A DNA stretch of 41,011 bases from a bacterium (lineage in GTDB: Bacteria > SZUA-79 > Acidulodesulfobacterales > Acidulodesulfobacteraceae), in assembly GCA_021795355.1 (NCBI GenBank), contig JAJYPL010000012.1:1-41011 (forward strand). Reading direction: 5' to 3'. Position 1 is the first letter of the stretch; the number at the start of each line of letters is the position of its first letter. The notes beneath the pieces are model-generated. The model was not told where the DNA came from, searched no databases, and worked only from the letters and a program-made list of their open reading frames with translations. Below are positions 16,904-24,776 of this stretch, in pieces. The translations under genes were made by a program, and so were the position numbers.

Positions 16904-17464
16904 TTATTTATTTTGATTATGCAGAATAATTTTTGCGGCTTCTTTTAAATCTTTAACGTAAAAGTCGGGAATAATACTTTCGTCGTGTTCATACATATCG
17001 TTTTTTATATAGAACGATTTTAAACCAGAATTTTTTGCAAGCATTATATCGCTGTCTTTATCGCCTACCATGAAGGACATTCCGGTATCTATATCGAACT
17101 TTGCGGCTCCTTTAAGCACCATTCCCGCCGACGGCTTCCTGCAAGAGCATTTTATATTATAAGGTTCTACCGTTCCCTTATCGTGGTGAGGGCAGAAATA
17201 TAAATCGTCTATTCTAATTCCGTTATTTTCGTATATTTTAAGCAGTCTTTCGTGAACCGCCGCCAAATCGTCCATACTAAAAAATCCCTTTGCTACTCCC
17301 GCTTGATTAGTCACTATTACAAGCAGGTACCCCGCAGCTTTTAAGTCTTTAAGAGCCTCTAAAGAGCCCTGCAGTATAATAATATCTTCCGGATTTTTTA
17401 AATATCCTACATCCTTAATTAATACGCCGTCTCTGTCCAAAAAAACGCATTTGTTATTATTCAT
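16904..17464 (-). CDS. gmhB: D-glycero-D-manno-heptose 1,7-bisphosphate 7-phosphatase
   Basis: A 186-residue HAD phosphatase of the GmhB/HisB-N type that removes the 7-phosphate on the way to ADP-heptose for the LPS inner core. Motif I is FLDRDGVL (Asp10, Asp12), motif II is IVTNQAG, a zinc-binding loop has CPHHDKG and CSCRKP, and motif IV is MVGDKDSDIMLAKN. Length is normal. It is the last gene of the leftward lipid A cluster and lies about 240 bases after lpxL. Histidinol phosphatase is the related alternative, but the LPS setting favours GmhB. Confidence 0.9.
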   Translation of the reverse strand: MNNNKCVFLDRDGVLIKDVGYLKNPEDIIILQGSLEALKDLKAAGYLLVIVTNQAGVAKGFFSMDDLAAVHERLLKIYENNGIRIDDLYFCPHHDKGTVEPYNIKCSCRKPSAGMVLKGAAKFDIDTGMSFMVGDKDSDIMLAKNSGLKSFYIKNDMYEHDESIIPDFYVKDLKEAAKIILHNQNK

Positions 17465-17540
17465 ATTATTTATCTATTATCTTTTCCATAATTTTATATT
17501 ATATCATATATTCCGTTAATCCATATTAATACATAACTTT

Positions 17541-17565
17541 TAAGCTTTGGTTTAGCTAAAGCTTA
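17541..17565. terminator. Small AT-rich hairpin between lpxL and gmhB
   Basis: TAAGCTTT and AAAGCTTA form an eight-base stem around a nine-base loop. No long T-run follows, so it may be a processing or attenuation hairpin within the operon rather than a terminator. The rest of 17465-17702 holds only a short doubtful open frame. Confidence 0.35.
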
Positions 17566-17702
17566 TTAATAATAAAGACGGTAGTAATGCCATATTTCAA
17601 ATGGAAGATTTCAGTATTTTCGGAGAAAAATGGATGCTCGAATCTGCAAAAAATAAATTAAAGGACATAATAAGAGTTGCCGAAACATTAAATTTTATTG
17701 AT

Positions 17703-18614
17703 TTATTCATCATCCGGCCTTGTTTTCCACCTGTTGTGTATCCAGAACCATTGTTCGGGATACTGTGTTATTATGTCTTCTATTTTTTCGTTAAACATTT
17801 TTAAAATATTCATAGTGTCGGTCTTCCTGTCTCCCGTATATTTTATATCGATAGGCTGTCCGACTATCAGGCGGTGTTTCGAGTAATTTCCGTACTTTTC
17901 GTTAATTCTCACGATAAAAGCGGGGACGACGGGAAGTTTAGTTTTTGCGGCGATGTTTGCCATACCCGGCATAGTGCAGGCTTTAACGCCGAAGAAATCG
18001 GCGAAAACGCCTATGCGTTTAGAGGCATTTTCGTCGGGCAGAAATCCTACGATTTCGTTTGCGTTTAACGCCGAAATTATATTTTTTACGGCATTTTCCC
18101 TATTATAGATAACTTTGTTTCCCGAAGCGGTTCTTAAATTGTATAAAATTTTTTCTATATATGGATTATCGAGCGGTCTTGCAAGTACGTTGCCCTTATA
18201 GCCTTTCAGTCCGAAGGTTTTTGCAAGAAGCTCCCAGTTGCCGAAATGAGCGGTAAGCAAGAGTACCCCCTGTTTGCCGTATATATTTTTAATATTTTCA
18301 AAATCGGATTCCACGAAATTGTCTATATCGTTTTCGTTATATTTATTGAGCCTGAAAATTTCGACGAACACCATGCCGAGATTTTTATAAAATTTTATCG
18401 CAATATCGCTCAGCTCCTTTTCGGTTTTATCGGGAAAAGCTATTTTTAGGTTATTTAGGGTGTGTTTTCTGTGCTTTTTGTCGATTTTATAAAATAACAG
18501 TCCGAGAAATCTGCCGATTTTTAACGACAAATCCTGAGGCAATATATTCAAAAATGTGTAAAAAGAATATACCAAAACGTATTCCGAGTAAGCAAGAACT
18601 TTATTTTTTTTCAT
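17703..18614 (-). CDS. Lipid A late acyltransferase (LpxL/LpxM family)
   Basis: A 303-residue inner-membrane-associated acyltransferase that adds a secondary acyl chain to lipid A. It has an N-terminal hydrophobic segment. The catalytic motif HFGNWE has His123 and Glu128. Downstream are FLPDENASKRIGVFADFFG, MPGMANIAAKTKLPVVP, and the typical C-terminal block YPEQWFWIHNRWKTRP. Length is normal (about 300). It follows lpxK by 19 bases on the same strand. Whether it is the first (LpxL) or second (LpxM) acyltransferase, and which chain it adds, cannot be told from sequence. Confidence 0.9.
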   Translation of the reverse strand: MKKNKVLAYSEYVLVYSFYTFLNILPQDLSLKIGRFLGLLFYKIDKKHRKHTLNNLKIAFPDKTEKELSDIAIKFYKNLGMVFVEIFRLNKYNENDIDNFVESDFENIKNIYGKQGVLLLTAHFGNWELLAKTFGLKGYKGNVLARPLDNPYIEKILYNLRTASGNKVIYNRENAVKNIISALNANEIVGFLPDENASKRIGVFADFFGVKACTMPGMANIAAKTKLPVVPAFIVRINEKYGNYSKHRLIVGQPIDIKYTGDRKTDTMNILKMFNEKIEDIITQYPEQWFWIHNRWKTRPDDE

Positions 18615-18633
18615 AATTTTATTTTAGCTATGC

Positions 18634-20096
18634 CTATTTACAGTCATTGCGTGCGCAATGACGATTGTAAGTATCGTAAATATATTCAAAAAAATTTCCG
18701 TCTATAATAATATCGAAGTCTAAATAATAAATTTTATCGAATGCGCCATTATACAAGTCGATTATATCGGTTGGAGATGCATCTGGAACAGATGCATCTC
18801 CTTTGTATAATTCATTAAAGTTTTGAAAATTAAACCGTTTTAATTTTACGTAGTCCTTTAAAGTAGTAACGGCTATATATTTATCGTCGGAATTAAGAAT
18901 GTTTGCAATATCTTTGAAATCATTTTCCGTGTATTCGTAATGGTCGGCAAATTCCATTTTATAATCCGCAGGCGCTCCGCAGTCCGTCAAATTTTCGTAA
19001 AAATAATCGGAATTGCCGATTGCGCATACTGCAAGGATTTTTCCGCCTTTAGCCTTTAATGCTTTTAAATCTTCAACAGGCAAAACGTTTTTTTGAGATA
19101 TAAGTTTATTAGGCTTGTAATAGGAATAAAATATAGGGCAGTTTTTATTGTATTTTTTTAATTTATTTTCTATGCCGGCTTTAAAAGACGATTGATTTTC
19201 CAAAAGCTCCGGTCTGCATTTGTTTATAACTATAATATCTGCATATTTTAAAGCGCTTAACGGTTCTCTTAAAATTCCGGCGGGGATGATGTTTTGTATG
19301 AATATATCGATATTTGCGTCGATGAGAATTACGTTGATATTTTTTTTGATGTTTAACGCCGTGAAGCCGTCGTCTAAAATAGCTATTCGTTTATTTCCGT
19401 CGAATTCATCGTGAACGTCTTTGTAGGCGCATTTATATGTTAAATCTATTGTTTCTGTTTCAGTTTTAGTTTCTGCCCCTGTTCCTAATCCTGATTCTGC
19501 CGTTTCGTCTGGAATAATTTCGTTATTTTTTGCACGAGTCGCATCCGAAAAGTCTAAGTTTATCCCGTCCGCATCCGCATTTCCGCTGCCCGCCATCCAT
19601 TCCATTTCCGCAAGGTTGTAATATATTTCGTTGTTGTTAAGGCAGGTTTGAGCCGCTGCGAGCCTGTTTTTCGATACGATAACCGGAATATCTATCTTTT
19701 TTGATTTAAATTTTTCGATTAAAAGGAGGACTTCGTCTGGTAATTTATTTCTTGATTCCGGAATTTCATATTCCCATGCGGCTATATAGACTTTTTTTTT
19801 AAGCGTCCTTTATATCCGCGGGTTATAATGCAGGGTTTTAATTCTTTTTTATATAAATATTCGGCTAAACTATAAGAAAAAGGAGTTTTTCCGGACCCGC
19901 CCATATTTATATTTCCGAAGCTTACCGTGAATAATCCGGGTTCTTCGGCTTTAACGCTTCCGGATGCTCTTTTTATTTTAGAAAATGCTATAAAGGCAAA
20001 AGATAATATAATAAGCGGCAGTTTAGCGCAAAATTTTAATGCGGGTTTTTTTGATTCGTTGGTTAAAAAATTTAGGATATATTTATAAAGTTTCAT
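18634..20096 (-). CDS. lpxK: Tetraacyldisaccharide 4'-kinase LpxK, split by a -1 frameshift at a poly-A tract
   Basis: LpxK phosphorylates the 4' position of the lipid A disaccharide at the inner membrane. Frame 1 (from ATG 20096) encodes an N-terminal hydrophobic region and the Walker A GNINMGGSGKTP, then RGYKGRLKKK, and stops at 19782-19784. The rest of LpxK is in the -1 frame, open from the A9 tract (19792-19800) to 18634: VIVSKNRLAAAQ, AILDDGF, AGILREPL, IGNSDYFYENL, and VTTLKDYVKL. At the junction, codons 100-102 contain the heptamer A AAA AAG (19797-19791), and a -1 slip there joins both parts into 487 residues. Usual LpxK is about 310-360; the excess includes a low-complexity insert (about 19390-19600). 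It starts seven bases after the aminotransferase stop. A real pseudogene or an assembly error is possible. Confidence 0.8.
18643..18662. repeat. REP-like palindrome overlapping the lpxK 3' end
   Basis: GTCATTGCGTGCGCAATGAC is a perfect 20-base palindrome of the GTCATTGCGAG family. It encodes part of the final residues of LpxK (NRHCARNDCK), so the stop of lpxK is supplied by or next to the repeat. Confidence 0.7.
19791..19800 (-). other. Candidate -1 frameshift site (A AAA AAG) in lpxK
   Basis: On the coding strand the bases read TTA AAA AAA AAG TCT in the incoming frame. A AAA AAG is the slippery heptamer of E. coli dnaX. AAAGGA, a Shine-Dalgarno-like sequence, ends eight bases upstream of the heptamer, comparable to the dnaX stimulator. 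A downstream stem (GGAAT / ATTCC) is weak and about 17 bases away. Transcript slippage adding one A to the A9 run would give the same protein. Confidence 0.55.
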
Positions 20097-20102
20097 CTTT
20101 AT

Positions 20103-21302
20103 TTACACCAAATCCGCCGATTCTTTTATCCTGTTTAATCCTTCTTTAATAACGTCGAGCCCTGTTGCGAAAGACAATCTTATGTAATTATCGTTGCCGA
20201 ATTCTACTCCGGGGACCGCCGCAACAAGATATTTATCTAAAAGATGACCGCAATATTCGGAGGAAGAATTTATAGTTTCGCCTTTCGAGTTTTTTAATTT
20301 TCCGAAGACTTTTGAAATATCGACGAAAAGATAAAAAGCGCCGTCAGGTTTTACCGGAGCCATACTTTTTATGTTTTTTTCAAAAAAATCGAGCATATAA
20401 TCCCTTCTTTTTTGAAACTCGCCGCGCATCATATCGGTGAATTCGTATCCTCCCTTTAATGCCGCAAGCGCGCCGTACTGTGCGAAAGTAGTCGGATTAG
20501 AGGTGCTCTGCGACTGGATGTTGTTCATAGCGGCGATTAAATCTTTAGGGCCTGCTGTATAGCCTATCCTGAAGCCCGTCATGGAATAAGTTTTAGACAC
20601 GGCGTTGACGGCTATAGTCCATTCTTTCGTCGATTTATCCGCCATTAAAACGTTAAAAAACTTTTTACCGTCGAAAATAATTTTTTCGTATATATCGTCG
20701 GTTATAATATATAATTCTTGTTTTTTTGCAAAATCGGCTACTTCTATTATATCCTTTTCGTCCATCATAACGCCGGTGGGATTTGACGGACTGTTTATTA
20801 TAACGCCCCTTGTTTTGCCCGTCAGGCTGTTTTTCATTATTTCAAGGTTGAATTTAAAACCGTTTTTTGAGGTATCCGCTATTACGGGAACCCCGCCTGA
20901 AAGTTTTATAATTTCCGTATATGAAACCCAGTAAGGCGAAGGAACTATTATTTCGTCGCCTTCGTTCAGCATAGCCGTGAAGATATTATATAAAGAATGT
21001 TTGCCGCCGCAGGACACTATTATTTCCGAATTTTCGTAACGTATTCCGTAATCTTCCGAAAACTTTTCGGCTATGGCGGTTTTTAGTTCGTTTATTCCCG
21101 AAACCGGCGTATATTTCGTCTGACCTTTGTCAAGCGAGTCTTTTACCGCTTTTTTTATATAGTCCGGCGTGTCGAAATCTGGTTCTCCGGCGCCGAAACC
21201 TACGACGTTTTTACCTTCGCTTTTTAGTTTATTGGCTTTAGCCGTTATGGCAAGGGTGGCCGACGGCTTTATTAAAGAAGCTCTACATGAGAGTTTCATC
21301 AT
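20103..21302 (-). CDS. Class I aminotransferase, aspartate aminotransferase type (AAT-Ib)
   Basis: A 399-residue PLP enzyme. It has GAGEPDFDTPDYI (38-50), YTPVSGINELK, SPSNPTGVMM, TDDIYEKI, and the PLP-lysine motif SKTYSMTGFRIGY with Lys237. The final domain has the Arg motif NYIRLSFAT. This pattern is that of bacterial class Ib aspartate aminotransferases, some of which also use prephenate. An AAGGAGAAA ribosome-binding site precedes the double ATG (21302 and 21299). The start overlaps the coaD stop by 20 bases, and lpxK follows after six bases, so it is translationally embedded in the envelope operon. Confidence 0.92.
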   Translation of the reverse strand: MMKLSCRASLIKPSATLAITAKANKLKSEGKNVVGFGAGEPDFDTPDYIKKAVKDSLDKGQTKYTPVSGINELKTAIAEKFSEDYGIRYENSEIIVSCGGKHSLYNIFTAMLNEGDEIIVPSPYWVSYTEIIKLSGGVPVIADTSKNGFKFNLEIMKNSLTGKTRGVIINSPSNPTGVMMDEKDIIEVADFAKKQELYIITDDIYEKIIFDGKKFFNVLMADKSTKEWTIAVNAVSKTYSMTGFRIGYTAGPKDLIAAMNNIQSQSTSNPTTFAQYGALAALKGGYEFTDMMRGEFQKRRDYMLDFFEKNIKSMAPVKPDGAFYLFVDISKVFGKLKNSKGETINSSSEYCGHLLDKYLVAAVPGVEFGNDNYIRLSFATGLDVIKEGLNRIKESADLV

Positions 21303-21819
21303 TTTCTCCTTTTGCGTAAATTTTTGAAAGCTCTTCCGCTATAGCCGGAGGAACCATGCTCGATACGTCTCCTCCAAGCCGAGAAATTTCTTTGACTATC
21401 GTGGAACTTAAAAAAGAATACTTTTCCGCAGTCATCATAAATATAGTTTCGATATCTGAATTTAACGTTCTGTTAGTCGTCGCAAGCTGAAGCTCGTACT
21501 CGAAATCCGAGACGGCCCTTAGTCCCCTTATTATAACTTTTGCGTCAATACTTTCGACGTATTTTACTAAAAGACCTTTTAAGCCTACCACTTCGACTCT
21601 TCCTGAATCGATATCCTTATCGTCTTTGATAGTCCCGTTTATCAGTTCTATGCGTTTAGACTGAGAAAAAAGATACGGTTTTTTTTTATTGCAAGCTACC
21701 GCGATTATAACTCTGTCGAATATATTAAGGCTTCTTTTTAAAATGTCTAAATGACCGTAAGTTACCGGATCGAACGAGCCCGGATAAACCCCTGTCTTAT
21801 ATTTAATTGAATTTGACAT
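21283..21819 (-). CDS. coaD: Phosphopantetheine adenylyltransferase
   Basis: A 178-residue nucleotidyltransferase that makes dephospho-CoA from 4'-phosphopantetheine and ATP. The ATP-binding motif YPGSFDPVTYGHLD (12-25) has the TxxH-type His23. RGLRAVSDFEYELQLATTNR and the C-terminal EKYSFLSSTIVKE motif are standard. The frame is open to 21885, but the family starts close to the YPGSFDP motif, so ATG 21819 is preferred; the upstream 22 codons look non-coding. No clear ribosome-binding site is present at any candidate start. It heads the leftward coaD-aminotransferase-lpxK-lpxL cluster. Confidence 0.92.
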   Translation of the reverse strand: MSNSIKYKTGVYPGSFDPVTYGHLDILKRSLNIFDRVIIAVACNKKKPYLFSQSKRIELINGTIKDDKDIDSGRVEVVGLKGLLVKYVESIDAKVIIRGLRAVSDFEYELQLATTNRTLNSDIETIFMMTAEKYSFLSSTIVKEISRLGGDVSSMVPPAIAEELSKIYAKGENDETLM

Positions 21820-22007
21820 AAACTTTATTTTTACCATAAAACCGATAAAATTGCAATTACGTAAATTTTTAATTTTGAGATACAAAAATTTTTATTGATT
21901 TATTTTTAAAAATTTGATAAATTTAAAAATCTATCTAAACTAAACTAAAATAAATAATTTATTTATGTTATGAAAATTTTTTAATATAAAATAAGGAGCA
22001 TTTTATT

Positions 22008-22274
22008 ATGGCGAATCATAAATCTGCCGAAAAAAGAGCAAGACAGACTGAAAAAAGAACGGAAAGAAACAGGCACAGTATTTCTAAAATGAAAACAGGC
22101 ATAAAGAAATTTCAGGCTGCGGTTGCCGAAAGCGACAAAGAAAAAGCCTTATCTCTTTTTAATTTAAACGTATCTTATATTATGCAGTTAACCGCAAAAA
22201 AAATTATACACAAAAACAATGCATCGAGAAAAGTCTCGGCTCTTGCTAAACTTAAGAATTCTATAAACGGTTAA
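22008..22274 (+). CDS. rpsT: 30S ribosomal protein S20
   Basis: An 88-residue basic helical protein that binds 16S rRNA. It begins MANHKSAEKRARQTEKRTER, and the C-terminus has KKIIHKNNASRKVSAL, both S20 signatures. AAGGAG lies nine bases before the ATG. It overlaps the 3' end of holA by 14 bases in tail-to-tail orientation. Confidence 0.97.
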   Translation: MANHKSAEKRARQTEKRTERNRHSISKMKTGIKKFQAAVAESDKEKALSLFNLNVSYIMQLTAKKIIHKNNASRKVSALAKLKNSING

Positions 22275-23250
22275 GTTTAAAAATAAATTCTTCGAAAATC
22301 AGATCCGGCGGATAAGACGTCGTTTTAAGTTTTAAATCGGCGTCTTCCAAAAGTTTTACCGCATTTCTTAATTCTGCCTCGTTAAATAAAGAAAGACGCT
22401 TTACAAATTTGCCTTTAAGGAACGGCAGGACGGCATTAATGCTTAATATCGTTTCGATATTCATGCCCGATTTCTCCTGCATTTTAGCCCTGTGAAGTTT
22501 TTTTGCCTCTCCGTATAATATAGATATAATTTTTATAGGCTCTTCTCCGTCCGCATAAAGAACATCGAACATAGAAAAGGCCGCCCTGAAATCTCTGTCT
22601 AATATTTTGTCGGTTAAATCGAATACGCTGAATTTTTTTGAAAAAGATATAAGAGATTTTATTTTTTCTATAGGTATTTCGGTTTTAACTTTTGAATCGG
22701 CCGATTTTGATCCGGCGTTAATCCCCGAAGATATTTTGTCTAATTCGGAATCTATGTTAAGCAGGTTATTTCCGGCATACCGCATTATATAATAGGCAGA
22801 TTCTTCCGATATAGAGAACCCTTTTTCCTTTGCCAAATTTTTAATATAAGACGGTATTTCGTTGTCGTATAACTTCCTGACCTTATTTAACTTAAAATAA
22901 CCTTTATTTTTTAATTCCTTAAAAAATTTCCAGTTTTCGTTTATTTTGGGTTCGTTAAAATAAAAGATGACTATTGTAGAAGGCGAAGGAGATTTTACGT
23001 ATTCAAGTATGCTATCGTCGTTAAGGAACGAATCGTCGAAATCTTCCGCCTGAACTACTCTTTTCTCCGCAAAAGCCGGATAGCTTTCCGCAATATTTAA
23101 AAAATCACTCGGAGACGGAGCGATAAGCTTGTCAAAATTGAAGTCGTATTCGTTTTCCGAAAGCGTGCCGGATTTTATTTTCTCTATTTCTTTAGTTATT
23201 CTGAAATTGTCTTCGCCGAAAAAAAAATATATTAAAACTTCGTTATTCAT
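22261..23250 (-). CDS. holA: DNA polymerase III subunit delta
   Basis: A 329-residue clamp-loader subunit that opens the beta sliding clamp. It begins with a strand and FFGEDNFRITKEIEKIK, matching the HolA start, and has SYPAFAEKRVVQAED (the region contacting the clamp), an AAA-like domain without Walker motifs, and a C-terminal helical collar ending DLKLKTTSYPPDLIFEEFIFKL. It is adjacent to rpsT, a pairing found in many bacteria. It is divergent from secG. Confidence 0.92.
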   Translation of the reverse strand: MNNEVLIYFFFGEDNFRITKEIEKIKSGTLSENEYDFNFDKLIAPSPSDFLNIAESYPAFAEKRVVQAEDFDDSFLNDDSILEYVKSPSPSTIVIFYFNEPKINENWKFFKELKNKGYFKLNKVRKLYDNEIPSYIKNLAKEKGFSISEESAYYIMRYAGNNLLNIDSELDKISSGINAGSKSADSKVKTEIPIEKIKSLISFSKKFSVFDLTDKILDRDFRAAFSMFDVLYADGEEPIKIISILYGEAKKLHRAKMQEKSGMNIETILSINAVLPFLKGKFVKRLSLFNEAELRNAVKLLEDADLKLKTTSYPPDLIFEEFIFKLNRL

Positions 23251-23302
23251 ATTATGATTGTATAATAAAAATTTTTTTTTTAAAAGGTTAGCGTTTTATA
23301 GG

Positions 23303-23334
23303 TTGACAATTTTAATATATTTTATTAATATAAT
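23303..23334 (+). promoter_or_regulatory. Predicted secG promoter next to the start codon
   Basis: TTGACA (23303-23308) and TATAAT (23329-23334) are 20 bases apart, longer than ideal; TTAATA at 23325-23330 gives 16. The start point would fall on or within a few bases of the secG ATG at 23340, and there is no Shine-Dalgarno. Confidence 0.4.
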
Positions 23335-23339
23335 CTATT

Positions 23340-23666
23340 ATGATTATGTTTTTAACTATTTTATTGATTGTATCCGCCGTATTTTTAGTTATCGTTATTC
23401 TTATGCAGCAGGGTAAAGGGCAGGAGATGGGAGCGGTTTTCGGCGGCAGTTCGCAGACTGTTTTCGGGGCGTCCGGAGCGGGGAATTTTTTAACCAAAGC
23501 TACTGCCGTAATAGCTATTATTTTTATGGCTTCCGCTTTTTTTATTTCTTATATTTCCGCCCAGAAGGAAAAAGGAATTAATATTTCTTCAAAATATACT
23601 GCGGCAAAAACTGTAAAATCTTCCATGGCAGCCAAAAAAGCGCCGGTTAAAAACAAGTCGAAATAA
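23340..23666 (+). CDS. secG: Preprotein translocase subunit SecG
   Basis: A 108-residue inner-membrane protein that assists the SecYEG channel. It has two transmembrane segments flanking the signature LMQQGKGQEMGAVFGGSSQTVFG. The cytoplasmic-side tail after residue 80 is Lys/Ala-rich. Length is normal. The ATG at 23340 and an in-frame ATG at 23346 are both possible; neither has a ribosome-binding site. A tRNA-Leu gene follows ten bases after the stop, the same secG-tRNA-Leu arrangement as in E. coli. Confidence 0.95.
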   Translation: MIMFLTILLIVSAVFLVIVILMQQGKGQEMGAVFGGSSQTVFGASGAGNFLTKATAVIAIIFMASAFFISYISAQKEKGINISSKYTAAKTVKSSMAAKKAPVKNKSK

Positions 23667-23676
23667 TATTCATGAT

Positions 23677-23762
23677 GCCGAAGTGGTGGAACTGGTAGAC
23701 ACACCATCTTAAGGGGGTGGCGGACAAAATCCGTGCCGGTTCGATTCCGGCCTTCGGCACCA
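23677..23762 (+). tRNA. tRNA-Leu, anticodon AAG
   Basis: The acceptor stem GCCGAAG (23677-23683) pairs with CTTCGGC (23752-23758), followed by discriminator A and an encoded CCA. The D arm has GGTGGAACTGGTAGACAC. The anticodon stem CCATC (23704-23708) pairs with GGTGG (23716-23720) around the loop TTAAGGG, placing AAG at 23711-23713. A long variable arm and the T arm GCCGG-TTCGATT-CCGGC complete a class II tRNA-Leu. AAG reads CUU. Reading the anticodon as TAA would break the anticodon stem. Confidence 0.9.
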
Positions 23763-23807
23763 CCTTTTATTTTAATTAATTACCCTTTTTTCCAAATTTA
23801 CCGCAAC

Positions 23808-24776
23808 TTATTGCATTATCGTATTACCGGTCAAATTCTTTTTCGACATCAAAATAATAAATTCTCTTAGAAAAGCGACGTTATAAAGTTCAGAGTTTTT
23901 TTCCATAAAGTTTAAAGCGTCGGCTACGCTCATTTTAATTCTGAACGGCCTGTTTCGCGTAAGCGAATCGAATCGGTTGGCGATAATAATTATTTTTCCG
24001 TATGTCGAAATATCTTCTTCGGTTTTGCCGAAAGGATATCCCGTTCCGTTTGAAGCTTCATGGTGTTCAAGGACGCCGTTTATTATATTTTTATTGTCTA
24101 TGCCGTTGGCGATTAAAATTTCTTTGGAATATATAGGGTGCATTTTGATTTCTTCAACCTCTTTTTCGGATAAGCCGTTCTTCGACAATATTTCTTTATG
24201 TATTTTTAATTTTCCTATATCGTGCGTTAATCCTGCAAAACCTATTTCATACAAAGATATTTTACCGGAAAAACCCAGCCTGTTTGCTAAAGCCATGGCG
24301 TATATGCTTACGTTCATACCGTGTCCGACTTCATTATAGTCGTAACTGGAAAGATTAAGCAAATTCATAAAAGCGAATTCGCTCATCAATAAATATTCTA
24401 TGGTCGTTTCTATCGATTTTTTAATATTTTCCTTATTGTCTTTAAGATTTCCGGTCGTTATAACGTATTCGGCGTAAATTTTTGAATACATATAAATTTT
24501 AACGGCTTTTTCTTCAAAATTGTAATCGGGAGATTTAATAATATAGTCGATATGCTCAAGCATATCGGTGTCATATTTATCTTTATCTTTTGTTTCTATA
24601 TAGAGGTGTTCGACGCCGTTATTTTTAAGCCTTAATGCGTCGCTCTGGGAAAAAATCAGCGCTTTAGACCTGTATAAAATATAATTATCTCCGGATTTTA
24701 GGTATAAAGGATAATCGGAATTTTTGCCGAATATCAAACTTTCTATAACTATAGGCGTATATTGCTTTTTTTCCAT
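23808..24776 (-). CDS. HD-GYP domain protein, probable cyclic di-GMP phosphodiesterase
   Basis: A 322-residue cytoplasmic protein without transmembrane segments. The N-terminal part (about 1-140) looks like the small domain that often precedes HD-GYP (VIESLIFGKNSDYPLYLKSG). The HD-GYP domain has His152, the HD pair at 185-186 (THDIGKL), and HHEASNGTGYP from residue 238, close to the consensus HHExxDGxGYP with Asn in place of Asp. The metal ligands look intact, so hydrolysis of c-di-GMP is likely. It forms a leftward pair with the metallo-hydrolase gene upstream of it (18-base gap). Confidence 0.85.
   Translation of the reverse strand: MEKKQYTPIVIESLIFGKNSDYPLYLKSGDNYILYRSKALIFSQSDALRLKNNGVEHLYIETKDKDKYDTDMLEHIDYIIKSPDYNFEEKAVKIYMYSKIYAEYVITTGNLKDNKENIKKSIETTIEYLLMSEFAFMNLLNLSSYDYNEVGHGMNVSIYAMALANRLGFSGKISLYEIGFAGLTHDIGKLKIHKEILSKNGLSEKEVEEIKMHPIYSKEILIANGIDNKNIINGVLEHHEASNGTGYPFGKTEEDISTYGKIIIIANRFDSLTRNRPFRIKMSVADALNFMEKNSELYNVAFLREFIILMSKKNLTGNTIMQ

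Follow-up and report, generated by a model that had tools for sequence, protein, structure and literature searches.

The lpxK gene of Candidatus Acidulodesulfobacteriota, a group of acid-mine bacteria, is split over two reading frames that meet at a conserved stretch of nine or ten adenines (A9/A10). Comparative sequence analysis indicates that its expression probably depends on recoding at this run, with slippage of RNA polymerase as the most likely route. Under this proposal, RNA polymerase would slip on the run and give some transcripts one extra A; these transcripts alone would yield full-length LpxK, while unslipped transcripts would yield a short N-terminal fragment that carries the P-loop and lacks the downstream motifs. 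The case for recoding is built on a layout shared by 25 genomes, selection that switches frame at the run, the invariance of the run itself, the lack of an ATG or GTG start for the C-terminal part and the depletion of long A runs in coding sequence, and together these make assembly error, decay and phase variation unlikely. We infer from the comparisons below both that the polymerase rather than the ribosome is the slipping machine and how efficiently it may slip.

In the window, by which we mean the whole 41,011-nucleotide stretch of DNA that was analysed, lpxK lies on the minus strand as a 0-frame N part and a -1-frame C part that meet at an A9 run (Table 1). The source MAG (G000) is 1.31 Mb, 66% complete and in 54 contigs. 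The junction codons read TTA (codon 99), AAA AAA AAG (100-102), TCT ATA TAG. The first-pass annotation had described two frames differing by -1, A_AAA_AAG in 0-frame phase over codons 100-102, AAAGGA eight bases upstream of this heptamer, a stop two codons past the site and a continuous 487-residue protein after a -1 shift, all of which we confirmed (102 + 385 residues for the joined protein). What it had called the N-terminal third amounts to roughly one fifth of the protein, 102 of its 487 residues lying before the junction. No second lpxK was found in the window's own assembly, at its 66% completeness, in agreement with the same annotation.

Table 1. Features of the lpxK locus in the window.
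Feature	Position	Strand	Remarks
lpxK N part	19782..20096	-	0-frame ORF, 104 codons, ATG 20096 to TAG 19784-19782
AAAGGA, Shine-Dalgarno-like	19806..19811	-	8 bases 5' of A_AAA_AAG; encodes part of RGYKG
A9 slippery run	19792..19800	-	starts on third base of TTA (codon 99)
TCTAT	19786..19790	-	3' of the A run and variable base 19791
0-frame stop TAG	19782..19784	-	placement differs between genera
lpxK C part	18634..19806	-	-1 frame, 391 codons open, stop 18636-18634
lipid A acyltransferase gene (PF03279)	17703..18614	-	downstream of lpxK; lipid A synthesis context

Both parts are recognizable as LpxK. The N part matched the Pfam LpxK family (PF02606) over profile positions 3-81 (E 5e-16, 59 bits) and the C part over 130-301 (E 3e-34, 119 bits), each exceeding the family cut-off of 27 bits, and profiles of the two parts matched Aquifex LpxK (4ehx) over residues 3-79 and 133-303, respectively. 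The N part holds the Walker A motif GNINMGGSGKTP together with RGYKG, while PDE, ILDDGF and DHYEY are found in the C part. Using eight aligned single-ORF LpxK sequences as the motif reference (P-loop, GDE, DDGF, DH), we located the P-loop in the N part and DE and DDGF (invariant), as seen in the 25 phylum sequences that cover the junction, in the C part; the DH motif is kept in more than 90% of the 25 (two rows are truncated), and the G of GDE is here P or S. As the motifs of the single-ORF enzyme are divided by the junction, each part on its own amounts to an incomplete enzyme. Two local peculiarities of the C part were also seen: an inverted repeat (18773-18801) with perfect 13-base arms around a 3-base loop, which lies in an insert absent from most relatives and possibly represents a small palindromic repeat, and a low-complexity stretch in mid-LpxK (about 19430-19605, C-part residues ~64-122) whose length is very variable across the phylum alignment.

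The two-frame layout is a property of the phylum. Our set comprised 30 genomes from six genera, 0.9-3.0 Mb in size, with LpxK present in 26 and the junction covered in 25; G011, the 26th, was left out of the junction counts because its gene is cut by a contig end, and the four genomes with no LpxK match (G007, G010, G024 and G045) are incomplete (59-86%). At every one of the 25 junctions TTA-AAA-AAA-AAN occurs in the same phase with the C part in the -1 frame, and the junction motif was found once per genome in 25 of the 30. A single-ORF lpxK was found in none of the 30 genomes searched. One weak second LpxK-like match, at G014:C28:24828-24983 (profile 260-310), fell below the cut-off. Outside the phylum, PF02606 was matched in 88 of 116 genomes, none of which has an adjacent two-frame split. 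Six of these outside genomes carry two PF02606 matches: in three the matches share the same open-frame length and thus lie in one frame, in two they are on different contigs, and one genome has two copies. Two other outside genomes have PF02606 fragments only, and one has an internal TGA.

We evaluated whether the gene is alive from its pattern of substitution. Over the 78 of 300 genome pairs with pS below 0.65, the N part had a median dN/dS of 0.22 and the C part one of 0.18. In the 60 bases 3' of the run, pooled pairs from one genus (7 genomes), whose 0 frame stays open for about 20 codons beyond the run, gave dN 0.031 and dS 0.894 when read in the -1 frame and 0.158 and 0.068 in the 0 frame; a second genus (2 genomes) gave 0.022 and 0.918 versus 0.165 and 0. 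Since the sequence right after the run evolves as protein in the -1 frame, the frame under selection switches at the run. The first-pass annotation had proposed a programmed -1 frameshift in a working lipid A gene, and net -1 recoding of a live lpxK is upheld by 25 of 25 junctions in six genera, by purifying selection on both parts and by the lack of a single-ORF copy in the phylum set. LpxK is normally essential, being needed for lipid A, and the full-length protein is probably the functional and needed product here as well.

An assembly error or a decaying pseudogene would be the simplest account of a split gene, as long homopolymers are error-prone and the window's MAG is fragmentary, but the identical layout recurs across species in 25 genomes, purifying selection acts on both parts and no other lpxK copy was found. 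Sequencing coverage of the relatives' contigs runs from 1.4x to 477x where stated, the highest value belonging to one relative, and the contigs belong to several accession series, though one naming scheme covers most of them. We therefore regard error or decay as a negligible prospect. The first-pass annotation had named reads with 7 or 10 adenines, as a mark of assembly error, or an intact lpxK elsewhere together with decay of this copy as grounds for giving up its proposal; the assembled runs are nine or ten long with a constant frame relation, and the search of the 30 phylum genomes for an intact copy returned none.

LpxK could in principle also be assembled from two separately translated polypeptides, given that there are two ORFs and that in 8 of the 25 genomes the C part has a TTG ahead of its DE motif (at residue 18 in six and residue 14 in two). 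Against this, ATG and GTG codons are absent from the first 21 residues of the C part, which include the PDE motif, in all 25 genomes, and in the window the first ATG of the C part is its residue 64, with no GTG or TTG between the run and that point. Moreover, K, Y, A, W and E of a KxYxAxWE motif directly after the run are invariant in all 25 (Y3, A5, W7, E8), selection in the -1 frame begins right at the run, and the run itself is free of synonymous change. These observations make a two-piece enzyme quite improbable.

The run stands out from its surroundings. Synonymous variation over all 25 sequences was 0 across TTA-K-K-K, compared with 0.416 for the gene, 0.416 for the ten codons before the run and 0.389 after it. 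Lys codon conservation alone is weak evidence because AAA makes up 85% of Lys codons, and the invariance of the four run codons within one genus is not rare: four-codon windows as invariant, the site itself counted, numbered 3 of 144 in genus g1 and 19 of 227 in genus g2, against 1 of 62 over all 25. The run is A9 in 13 genomes and A10 in 12, which differ by the base 3' of the run and not in length, so that the spacing never changes. The last run codon is AAG in 12, AAA in 12 and AAC in one (G018), with the nine A's invariant. Homopolymer tracts serve phase variation in other systems, and A9-A10 runs can mutate, which would allow replication slippage in the run to switch lpxK on and off; however, lpxK is out of frame in the same way in all 25 species, and what separates A10 from A9 is the base following the run rather than a change of length, leaving a phase switch scarcely credible.

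Conservation extends past the run on its 3' side. TCTAT follows the run in 24 of 25 genomes and TTTAT in one; an NTC codon comes directly after the run in 24 of 25, though codons ending in C make up only 17, 15 and 5% for Val, Ile and Leu (CTC), respectively, in these genes, and TAT is present in all 25. TCTAT is thus conserved beyond codon preference and may be part of the slippage signal, but this flank is also conserved more than a bare A run needs, which counts against polymerase slippage. On the 5' side, AAAGG, AAGGG or GGGG lies about 8-10 bases upstream in most genomes and is largely forced by the coding of RGYKG or RGYGA; the third base of the Gly codon in the AAAGGA stretch varies among relatives. 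Within genera, synonymous variation in the ten codons preceding the run is below that of the gene (g1, 0.176 versus 0.306; g2, 0.190 versus 0.254).

We compared these lpxK runs with A runs elsewhere in coding sequence. Counts were limited to ORFs of at least 150 codons, and the lpxK run is absent from them because the N part is shorter than this and the first start of the C part comes after the run. Runs of at least nine A's numbered 42 in G000 against 73.2 expected (308 ORFs, 408 kb) and 37 in G016 against 57.9 expected (273 ORFs, 400 kb), with none of 100 codon shuffles as low in either genome. Runs of at least ten numbered 0 against 21.6 in G000 and 3 against 14.0 in G016, one of these three at a start codon; the lpxK run is A9 in G000 and A10 in G016. 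Runs of exactly nine were mildly low (42 versus 51.5 in G000; 34 versus 43.9 in G016), suggesting that slippage at A9 may be modest, and runs of five to eight were over-represented relative to codon shuffles in G000. Long coding A runs are hence avoided, as expected if they slip, and the phylum keeps one in lpxK despite this avoidance. The depletion could, on the other hand, reflect replication slippage.

Lineage-wide breakage of genes at A runs was considered and rejected: a heuristic screen at runs of at least eight A's flagged three loci in G000 (408 kb), lpxK among them, and lpxK alone in G016 (400 kb). The other two G000 candidates were L137, a short pair of 81 + 112 codons, and L127, where an A8 at about position 2463 (G000:C13, ~22463) marks the change from a frame of 370 codons to one of 391, probably two neighbouring overlapping genes. 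None of the 28 runs of at least nine A's in the first 30 A9 loci of G000 was flagged, and lpxK is the sole clear split gene in the screens of the two genomes. When dnaX was checked for recoding, 29 of 30 genomes had it in a single frame of 484-638 codons; among the 13 of 20 dnaX loci read, no A run was common to all, and an A8 close to codon 372 recurs in several g1 genomes.

The same -1 outcome could be reached by the ribosome, slipping on A_AAA_AAA or A_AAA_AAR with perhaps some aid from the upstream purine-rich stretch and giving the same full-length product. A_AAA_AAA lies in phase over TTA-AAA-AAA in all 25 genomes, so the invariance of nine A's by itself has no power to separate polymerase from ribosome. 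The purine-rich stretch upstream in most genomes, the reduced synonymous variation before the run within genera and the conserved 3' flank are likewise in keeping with a ribosomal signal. The direction is always -1, and constant direction is described as a ribosomal sign (PMC3711429), but common descent also explains it. One IS element with a proven shift at A_AAA_AAC is described as having no established stimulator (PMC4066793).

A conserved stimulatory fold was looked for downstream of the run: RNAalifold predicted 0 pairs on the 25 sequences, and single folds of 8 of the 25 gave z values from +1.96 to -1.21, none of them unusual. An Rfam search of positions 17000-24000 returned 0 matches. 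tRNA-Lys(CUU), which weakens slippage at AAG in E. coli, was found in 23 of the 30 genomes, that of the window included. Several 3' fragments of this tRNA, about 45-50 bases long, occur in G005, G023, G021, G042 and G019, some at contig ends, a pattern that looks like repeated integration of mobile elements at this site. The comparison of junctions that the first-pass annotation had called for kept one half of its picture and lost the other: the two-frame layout holds throughout, whereas A_AAA_AAG is not a conserved element (12 of 25, with AAC in G018). Over all 25 sequences, the flanks vary like the gene, and the third base of the upstream Gly codon is free. With the tRNA present and the stem-loop missing from these folds, these points weigh against the ribosome, which we consider a possible agent of the shift.

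Since the nine A's are invariant and A_AAA_AAG is not, an extra A in the transcript is judged likelier than a ribosomal slip. A conserved A run at the frame transition in non-identical homologues is described as a criterion for transcriptional slippage genes (PMC1088944). In lpxK, at least nine A's lie at the frame transition with the same layout in non-identical homologues in 25 of 25 genomes, and runs of this length are under-represented in the coding sequence of both genomes counted. The marks of dnaX-type ribosomal frameshifting, a conserved A_AAA_AAG and a downstream stem-loop, were not found at these junctions.

The distance from the run to the 0-frame stop is two codons in 14 genomes and 20-23 in 11. 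As the stop position is variable and the tail shows no protein selection in the two genera (9 genomes) in which it was measured, the short 0-frame product is most likely a by-product. The first-pass suggestion that the ratio of short to full-length product could tune lipid A output finds no support in these data.

Most known cases of recoding come from mobile elements and viruses and from the genes dnaX and prfB. E. coli dnaX resembles lpxK in having A_AAA_AAG in phase (in 12 of 25 lpxK genes) and an SD-like stretch upstream; it differs in that lpxK has no stem-loop that we found and a variable heptamer, and in that recoding lengthens rather than shortens the lpxK product. The prfB gene, encoding RF2, differs from lpxK in the direction of the frameshift and in its signal, and no feedback loop is evident for lpxK. 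The two are alike as housekeeping proteins whose full length depends on recoding, in prfB through a +1 programmed frameshift described over wide taxa (PMC12421855).

Slippage on A runs has closer parallels. Thermus thermophilus dnaX is described as carrying a nine-A coding run at which polymerase slippage yields mixed-length transcripts and two product lengths (PMC1088944). It shares with lpxK the nine A's at the slippage site, but its unslipped product is the full-length one, whereas that of lpxK is a fragment and the enzyme needs the predicted slippage. In Citrobacter rodentium tssM1, as described, an A11 run is followed by a premature stop and an added A restores the frame at about 20-25% (PMC4256274). 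The premature stop 3' of the poly-A run is common to both genes; tssM1, however, belongs to a secretion system and requires both forms, while the short tail of lpxK is not conserved. Slippage at long poly-A runs is reported to correct the frame in 12-50% of transcripts of insect endosymbionts (PMC5009743), which have reduced genomes, in contrast to one gene and one site in the 25 readable genomes of a phylum with genomes of 0.9-3.0 Mb. A GeneTack cluster named 'Tetraacyldisaccharide kinase /acyltransferase' is listed among those with a possible programmed frameshift and translational coupling (PMC3711429); judged by its name alone, it joins two neighbouring genes and is not a site inside lpxK, and it is the only LpxK-like frame transition we found in print. 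Our literature search, which subscription papers mostly fell outside, found no report of lpxK recoding, so that its absence from print is not proven. As far as that literature goes, poly-A slippage is a known kind of event; what is new is the gene concerned, the dependence of a whole phylum on recoding and the strength of the comparative evidence.

Metatranscriptomes of Acidulodesulfobacterales exist (PMC6776010), which makes the recoding of lpxK directly testable; a term search of the main text of that paper found neither frameshift nor lpxK. Gene callers would likely output two fragments or a pseudogene at this locus, and the lineage could in consequence be judged to lack LpxK. It is conceivable, though doubtful, that polymerase slippage at the one A9/A10 site with its TCTAT flank sets, throughout the phylum, how much of an essential lipid A enzyme is made, as a built-in throttle, possibly sensitive to ATP level or polymerase pausing, that has persisted since the common ancestor in spite of being easy for evolution to remove. 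Every readable genome of this candidate phylum appears to rely on recoding for a cell-envelope enzyme, and its lpxK site offers a natural comparative series, with A9 or A10 runs, AAG, AAA or AAC codons and near or far stops, on how slippage is maintained and whether it has a regulatory role.
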